Shown: positions 40,545-54,290 of the stretch, piece by piece
Layout: each line of letters begins with the position of its first letter
Position numbering within the stretch: the stretch's first letter is position 1
Assembly: GCA_024516035.1 (NCBI GenBank)
Contig: CM044958.1
Coordinates: forward strand, 46,039,929 to 46,103,928
Direction: 5' to 3'
Source of the DNA: Bactericera cockerelli
Lineage: Eukaryota > Arthropoda > Insecta > Hemiptera > Triozidae
Length of the DNA: 64,000 bases
Notes under the pieces: generated by a model
The model's database searches: none
Told to the model about the DNA's origin: nothing
The model's input: the letters and a program-made list of their open reading frames with translations, nothing else
Made by a program: the position numbers and the translations under genes

Positions 40545-40749
40545 AGATGAACCAGCAGGGCCGGAACTCACACCACCTGCACCACCACCCCTCTCGTCCC
40601 CGTCACCATCTACCTCAAGGCCATGCCTCTCATCCCCACCCCCGTCCTAGTCAGGCCCGGTGGTCTCAGAACCCACACCCCCATCCTCACCCCCATCCAC
40701 ACCCACACCCCCATTCATACTCCGGGAAGCGCCAGTGTTTCAGTCAAGG
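40545..40749 (+). CDS. mura: RING gene exon 1: His/Pro-rich N-terminus with candidate ATG
   Basis: Acceptor GAACGCAG at 40537-40544 then AG-ATG; ATG at 40547. It encodes MNQQGRNSHHLHHHPSRPRHH and alternating His-Pro runs (PHPHPHPHPHPH), ending CFSQG with donor GG|GTAAGT, phase 2. The GC- and C-rich composition contrasts with the AT-rich flank. If the frame enters from an upstream exon the ATG would be internal. Confidence 0.75.

Positions 40750-54290: not shown

Follow-up and report, generated by a model that had tools for sequence, protein, structure and literature searches.

In amphioxus, minisatellite-like tandem duplications that run across exon-intron boundaries have been given the name mirages, with the globin genes BflGb6 and BflGb9 as described cases and Adh3 as a cited one, and regular splicing is reported to be seemingly undisturbed by them (PMC3087553). 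A further report adds PGBD5 and TnC to the genes that carry such structures (PMC3902484). A different outcome of duplication at exon ends is described for the gain and growth of introns in Daphnia pulex, where neointrons carry direct repeats of 4-12 bp at the exon ends; these repeats, which in some cases come with inserted sequence, are attributed to staggered double-strand breaks and their repair (PMC4202315). Among titles and abstract openings, in a literature search whose coverage took in few subscription papers, no arthropod arrays across existing junctions were found, the nearest arthropod reports being a prawn lectin family with coding repeats and intron gain by duplication in Drosophila (PMC2891723). 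The psyllid genome papers listed in that search likewise include none on such arrays, and the main text of one psyllid genome paper uses neither "tandem repeat" nor "minisatellite".

Here we analyse a 64,000-nucleotide stretch of psyllid DNA, which as a whole we call the window, together with a sample of genes from the same assembly. Minisatellite arrays that hold genuine splice junctions are present at six of the seven sites of the window for which a first-pass annotation had claimed them. Across the genes examined, junctions bear arrays several times more often than intron interiors when each array is counted as a single event, and the junctions concerned are mostly donors.

Junction-bearing arrays in the window

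The RING gene on the plus strand of the window belongs to the RNF38/44 type, its best relative being RNF38 of Cacopsylla melanoneura (72% identity over 100% of the 315-aa query) and its second-best that of Diaphorina citri. With the Cacopsylla melanoneura protein as template, tblastn combined with splice signals gives nine coding exons and eight introns. Arrays were delimited by TRF, by the sequence itself and by a 26-mer test, in which the 26-mer centred on a junction is compared with the intron that adjoins it and, as controls, with about 150 equally long windows drawn from other genes. The exons, arrays and inserted sequences of the gene are as follows, with the support for each in brackets and a slash marking the junction.

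40547..40749, plus strand: RNF38/44 coding exon 1 (tblastn; donor TCAAGG/gtaagtga)
40819..40881, plus strand: decayed junction array, its degenerate 24-bp units similar to the junction at the exon 1 donor (TRF; 26-mer near-copy)
41185..41341, plus strand: RNF38/44 coding exon 2 (tblastn, splice signals)
42053..42737, plus strand: 39-bp array of 17.4 copies, purely intronic and off the junctions (TRF)
42952..43202, plus strand: RNF38/44 coding exon 3 (tblastn, splice signals)
43197..43601, plus strand: exon 3 donor junction array (TRF rows 43226-43431 and 43438-43601; sequence; 26-mer test)
44480..44750, plus strand: RNF38/44 coding exon 4 (tblastn, splice signals)
45973..46465, plus strand: 144-bp array of 3.4 copies with an exon-like open stretch of 75 bases (TRF; dispersed repeat)
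46490..46681, plus strand: RNF38/44 coding exon 5 (tblastn, splice signals)
49016..49131, plus strand: RNF38/44 coding exon 6 (tblastn; donor TCTGCT/GTGAGTAT)
49108..50384, plus strand: exon 6 donor junction array, 65 bp, 19.5 copies (TRF)
50707..51392, plus strand: exon 7 acceptor junction array, 61 bp, 11.2 copies (TRF, 26-mer test)
51393..51805, plus strand: insertion with a terminal run of A between the array and exon 7 (limits by eye)
51835..52009, plus strand: RNF38/44 coding exon 7 (tblastn, splice signals)
53100..53235, plus strand: RNF38/44 coding exon 8, first part of the RING-H2 (tblastn, splice signals, domain)
53201..53499, plus strand: exon 8 donor junction array, 76 bp, 3.9 copies (TRF)
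53866..54223, plus strand: 121-bp array of 3.0 copies before exon 9, its unit without the junction (TRF)
54231..54290, plus strand: RNF38/44 coding exon 9, end of the RING-H2 and stop (tblastn, splice signals)

The exon 3 donor junction at 43202 lies inside units of 59-64 bp that read GCTGAG/GTGAGAGGGAAAC and carry 6 exonic bases each, the exon 6 donor junction at 49131 lies in the 65-bp array of 19.5 copies with 23 exonic bases, and the exon 8 donor junction at 53235 lies in the 76-bp array of 3.9 copies with 35 exonic bases, all three as the first-pass annotation had proposed. Its claim for the exon 7 acceptor holds as well, the 61-bp array of 11.2 copies sharing about 16 exonic bases with the junction at 51835, from whose exon the array now stands some 440 bases away because of the insertion ending in a run of A. 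Splice signals are kept within these arrays, GTGAGT in 20/20 of the copies found in the exon 6 donor array, TTTCAG in 11/11 of those found in the exon 7 acceptor array and the signal of a third RNF38 array in 3/4 copies.

At the exon 1 donor, where a junction array had been called probable, the array has decayed: TRF returns only a weak array, with 24-bp units, 70 bases into the intron, and the near-copy of the junction 26-mer in its own intron matches at 20/26 positions against a control maximum of 16, which supports the presence of a decayed array at this donor. The tract before exon 9 is the site at which the claim fails, as the 121-bp array stops at 54223, leaving 7 bases before the exon, and contains neither the AG nor exonic bases. 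The open stretch of the 144-bp array amounts to 25 codons preceded by AG and followed by GT and was at first read as an RNF38 exon, a reading that was abandoned in favour of a dispersed repeat as the stretch is absent from the Cacopsylla protein and recurs elsewhere. Within the sampled regions the 144-bp unit has matches on contigs C1 (in two gene copies), C13 and C3 and a 38-base match on C5. The array, which is none of the seven claimed sites, may represent a mobile element that has tandem units inside it.

The remaining claimed site is an acceptor in a Dok-type gene on the minus strand, whose exon translations, when joined, match the IRS-type PTB domain PF02174 with E 1e-20.

8650..8669, minus strand: initial 20 bases of the PTB exon in the Dok-type gene, recurring in the array (acceptor AG at 8671-8670)
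8697..9188, no strand assigned: TTAA-flanked element that ends in 15-bp inverted repeats and has 42-bp repeats inside (TRF, sequence)
9189..9908, minus strand: Dok-type acceptor junction array, 77-81 bp units (TRF, sequence)

The exon starts at 8669 and its first 20 bases recur in the 77-81 bp units of the array at 9189-9908, in keeping with what had been claimed, and exon and array are kept apart by the TTAA-flanked element at 8697-9188, which from its look we take to be piggyBac-like. The Dok-type exon also contains an in-frame 30-bp coding repeat in 5 copies at 8196-8344. Elsewhere in the window, at 7180-7255, a 38-bp unit occurs twice and has 2-4 matches in each of L076, L021, L052, L067, L032 and L005, two of these six other loci overlapping one another; it is a dispersed tandem unit.

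Placement of arrays in other gene families

The assembly comprises 565 Mb in 1032 contigs, and those of the contigs examined that measure about 22 Mb or more are numbered up to C13, in agreement with the 13 pseudo-chromosomes reported for other psyllids (PMC12203342). Gene families were picked by domain and not by arrays, and comprised dynein heavy chain (PF12774; 30 loci among 64 matches plus 20 kb of one gene), CCT chaperonin (PF00118; 30 loci among 68 matches) and neurotransmitter transporter (SNF, PF00209; 26.5 kb of genes). Dynein exons were placed by homologous proteins (the best 120 of 5032) and splice signals, and CCT and SNF exons by profile matches and splice signals. The final set holds 68 introns (58 kb) outside the window, 37 from dynein, 19 from CCT and 12 from SNF genes, plus the eight of RNF38. 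Left out were introns without both flanking exons identified, arrays of period below 18, eight regions duplicating another sampled region (one of which, on C424, has a junction array), the RING loci L001-L008 (L001 with exon-like arrays), L039-L040, the Dok-type gene and the myosin pair L077-L078. Open-frame length was considered as a marker of long arrays and rejected, no such correspondence being present. A dynein donor on C5 (L041-L042 joined, reverse strand 2464-5459) carries a 60-bp array of 48 copies, which is enclosed by an open frame of 1111 codons.

The placement of TRF arrays (period at least 18, in called introns) was compared with a tolerance null, in which the unit is placed evenly in the unexpanded intron with an exonic intrusion of at most one unit, yielding the chance that a junction is spanned. 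With automatic calls, 11/25 arrays outside the window span a junction against 3.34 expected (p 2.6e-5), one of these 11 having its acceptor called on a decoy copy. Curation corrected two junction calls misled by arrays, marked two RNF38 arrays as spanning and merged one TRF row with its neighbour, and outside the window 12/25 curated arrays span a junction against 2.59 expected (p 8e-7). The addition of three introns for carrying arrays brings the count to 15/28 against 3.0 expected, and for this 28-row set p remains below 1e-6 whichever single region is omitted. By family, curated and with the added introns, dynein has 9/15 spanning arrays (p 2e-6) and SNF 4/6 (p 0.003), and CCT alone, at 2/7, is not significant (p 0.12). 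RNF38 alone gives 2/10 with automatic calls (p 0.31) and 4/9 against 1.04 expected after curation (p 0.011); the evidence from the other genes is stronger than that from RNF38 alone. Under a looser null, allowing 95 exonic bases whatever the unit, 10/24 arrays span a junction against 4.6 expected (p 0.006), and among those of at least 2.5 copies the figure is 6/11 against 3.2 (p 0.06).

The 26-mer test, performed without TRF, finds a private near-copy in the own intron, better than any control, for 18/152 junctions. These divide into 14/76 donors and 4/76 acceptors (p 0.03 for the difference) and by family into 7/74 junctions in dynein, 2/38 in CCT, 4/24 in SNF and 5/16 in RNF38 genes; acceptors taken alone show no clear excess (4/76, p 0.12). 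As intronic control we used positions outside junction arrays, either raw or collapsed, each family of copies then being counted once. Private copies are present at 11.8% of junctions against 2.5% of collapsed intronic positions, a ratio of 4.8 (p 6e-8), and against 7.7% of raw intronic positions, a ratio of only 1.5 (p 0.04). Because a junction is a single ancestral position, we regard the comparison with collapsed positions as the fair one. Introns without a junction array have private copies at 150/1524 positions. Outside the window, 13/136 junctions have private copies (p 4e-5 against the collapsed intronic rate), with a donor bias that is weak there (10 donors against 3 acceptors, p 0.09). 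In a scan of offsets from the junction over 69 introns, private copies of donors number 13 at the junction, 14 at +60 and 9 at +150, and those of acceptors 4 at the junction and 9 at +80. The inner values are inflated by array bodies, and the scan is equally compatible with a broad zone near exon ends as with an excess centred on the junction. The view of the first-pass annotation that placement is non-random thus stands in the tolerance-null and collapsed tests over the 68 introns outside the window, and is weaker under the looser ones.

Unit anatomy and origin of the arrays

The curated junction arrays (n=19) have units of 22-139 bp with a median of 53, three of the 19 lengths being multiples of three, and reach 48 copies. 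Exonic lengths, read manually off the TRF limits, give a mean exonic share per unit of 0.51, which is uniform over the 19 arrays (KS p 0.63, or 0.68 with two lengths corrected), indicating that breakpoints fall anywhere on either side of the junction. Units of the arrays read consist of unspliced DNA from both sides of the junction, contiguous and head to tail beside its source; the outermost copy serves as the working junction, and the remaining copies are intronic and mostly intact decoys. Readable breakpoints share 0-3 bases, with two two-copy SNF arrays extending 0 and 1 base beyond whole copies and a CCT case sharing 3 bases. Among six two-copy arrays examined, three end in mismatches (excess -3, -7 and -15), and of these only the last gave a breakpoint, by way of a copy pair.

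Many of the sampled genes have a second copy in the assembly, 92-99.9% alike over the aligned parts (C4 at 19.86/20.50 Mb; C424 and C5 at 29.1 Mb; C1 at 53.9/54.0 Mb; and pairs on C1, C2 and C3), and these are perhaps unpurged haplotypes, or duplicates. The instability of arrays is seen here between gene copies of one assembly and not between individuals. A dynein acceptor carries a 103-bp duplication on C424 that is absent on C5, with TCA common at the breakpoint (by eye), and a CCT donor has, in one of two copies, a 20-bp duplication that starts exactly at the donor and includes no exonic base. Copy number differs as well, a 34-bp acceptor array of a dynein pair having 19.2 against 24.2 copies in gene copies 99.3% alike and a 94-bp array at a myosin donor 5.2 against 6.1. 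In one CCT copy (C1; L065/L070 against L062/L066/L069) a 12-base repeat of the donor junction flanks 46 bases that the other copy is without; these 46 bases partly match another locus (25 bases, 92%), making an inserted element with a 12-base target duplication an alternative at that site. Differences are also found off the junctions, as in a CCT pair that differs in a 19-bp intronic repeat. In the myosin pair, L077 (reverse strand 2330-2594) has a 41-bp array of 6.5 copies and L078 about one unit, the units having acceptor-like ends and the array ending 16 bases before the acceptor. RNF38 exon 7 has a single match in the assembly, and the window therefore offers no copy pair for comparison.

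Copies that differ in the presence or number of repeats, together with breakpoints that share 0-3 bases, argue for tandem duplication at the level of DNA and against an RNA template. RNA templating, which the first-pass annotation had raised, would account, whether by retro-copying of unspliced RNA or by reverse splicing, for the splice signals inside the units, but these units are contiguous genomic DNA standing head to tail beside its source, made of unspliced intron and the exon edge of one side, and in the arrays read they hold no spliced sequence or poly-A, leaving this explanation scarcely credible. Were the arrays footprints of introns born when an exonic AG-GT site was duplicated in tandem, they would follow a route of intron gain described in Drosophila (PMC2891723). 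The units here, however, hold intron sequence and copy one junction, with no exonic segment bounding a new intron, and we judge such an origin very unlikely. An assembly artefact might be suspected from the second gene copies and from one-base frame differences in two real junction copies: near its start, RNF38 exon 7 differs in length by one base from the array units and from homologues, which shifts the frame, and in an SNF exon (L075, about 5300) the real junction copy is one base off the array-unit length, again with a frame shift. Polishing errors beside repeats are a likely cause of both shifts. Because point changes distinguish the units, some arrays have inserted elements within them, and unrelated genes located on several chromosomes carry arrays, an artefact is highly improbable as the source of the arrays themselves.

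The explanation that we consider probable is that the arrays are "mirage" minisatellites, junction-spanning tandem duplications that arise by junction-biased error-prone repair, are tolerated, and are then expanded. The first duplication would result from error-prone repair of offset breaks or nicks, through fill-in and end joining. The vicinity of junctions, and of 5' splice sites in particular, would undergo such repair more often than the intron interior. A duplication would survive if the outer junction is left intact and is picked by exon definition or by first-come co-transcriptional splicing, and unequal exchange could then expand the array and even out its copies. That decoy acceptors are transcribed ahead of the real one may be why arrays are less frequent at acceptors. 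More tentatively, exon-intron junctions, those at 5' splice sites foremost, could constitute a mutational hotspot of short tandem duplication in this lineage. Breaks or nicks tied to gene structure would then yield duplications at junctions several times as often as elsewhere in introns and leave a minisatellite at about a tenth of the genome's junctions, through a process with independent origins in an insect and in amphioxus.

The bias of duplication towards junctions is the part of this explanation that the remaining alternatives address. If duplication were even along genes and those at junctions merely survived by virtue of an intact outer copy, one would expect the intact outer copy that the arrays read do leave, and the uniform place of the junction in the unit is what random duplication would give; uncollapsed coverage, at 7.7% in introns against 11.8% at junctions, is likewise in its favour. 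Such tolerance, offered as a cause in the first-pass annotation, is to that extent compatible with the data, but it predicts 2.6-3.3 spanning arrays among 25 where 11 (automatic) or 12 (curated) are seen, and the collapsed junction rate is 4.8 times the intronic one. It also predicts equal numbers of donors and acceptors, unless acceptor duplications are more harmful, where 14 against 4 are seen (p 0.03). The excess thus goes beyond tolerance alone under the tests that we judge fairest, raw coverage giving 1.5-fold only, and tolerance as the sole cause is unlikely.

A source for the bias could be fragility linked to transcription or splicing, a link that the first-pass annotation had also offered, with breaks near the 5' splice site brought about by R-loops, nicks or stalled polymerase. 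In line with this, 14/18 junctions with private copies are donors, the exons at junctions with arrays are more GC-rich (0.584 against 0.521, p 0.005), and the 12-base repeat in the one CCT copy is centred on the 5' splice site. Neurotransmitter-transporter genes, however, are expected to be silent in the germline, and they too have arrays: 4/6 span a junction after curation, one of them located in an added intron, and in the 26-mer test these genes, with 4/24 junctions against 7/74, are affected no less often than dynein genes. This weakens the idea that arrays require germline expression. Donor strength, moreover, does not differ between junctions with and without arrays, and we regard fragility of this kind as somewhat doubtful. 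The same difference in exon GC would be expected of a composition hotspot, in which duplications occur in GC-rich DNA or at GC/AT borders and purely exonic ones are purged, and an in-frame 30-bp coding repeat is present at 8196-8344 of the Dok-type exon. Yet the GC step across the junction is no different with or without arrays (p 0.56), and composition by itself gives no preference for donors, so that a composition hotspot appears rather unlikely.

Comparison with known systems

Both routes of intron gain share features with the psyllid arrays and differ from them in outcome. The CCT copy with its 12-base donor repeat around 46 bases resembles the exon-end repeats of Daphnia pulex, where new introns are born, whereas in the psyllid it is junctions already in place that have been duplicated and have grown into arrays. 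Intron gain from AG-GT proto-splice sites likewise involves tandem duplication with splice signals (PMC2891723, PMC4974935) and makes a new intron, whereas here an existing junction is copied into its intron; in the units read, one junction with its flanks is repeated, and not both intron ends from one exonic segment.

If the excess at junctions is mutational, it exposes a fragility of splice junctions that may exist, in weaker form, in other genomes, and it would keep producing decoy splice sites, out of which new exons and shifted introns could arise. The arrays are also a natural stress test of splice-site choice, in that about twenty near-identical donors stand 65 bases apart and the first must be taken. 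With copies at about a tenth of the sampled junctions, both questions are open to ordinary long-read and RNA data.

The closest likeness is to the amphioxus mirages, which lie at either boundary, contain AG or GT in many repeats, have units of 10-160 bp and differ between haplotypes (PMC3087553, PMC3902484). In the psyllid, boundary-spanning head-to-tail units are present at RNF38 exons 3, 6, 7 and 8, at the Dok acceptor and in 12/25 arrays elsewhere; both 5' and 3' boundaries are affected (14/76 donors, 4/76 acceptors); splice signals recur in many repeats, as counted in three RNF38 arrays; and copy number is unstable between gene copies, including pairs in which the array is present in one copy and absent from the other. 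The hosts differ, amphioxus being a cephalochordate and the present genome that of a psyllid, as the best protein relatives are psyllid ones. For amphioxus, undisturbed splicing and somatic instability are reported or cited, whereas the psyllid arrays are known from genomic sequence. The amphioxus cases involve a few genes, whereas in the psyllid about one junction in ten is affected, in several gene families and with a measured excess. The type of structure is therefore already known, and what is new, as far as the literature searched extends, is its psyllid host and the measured excess at splice junctions.
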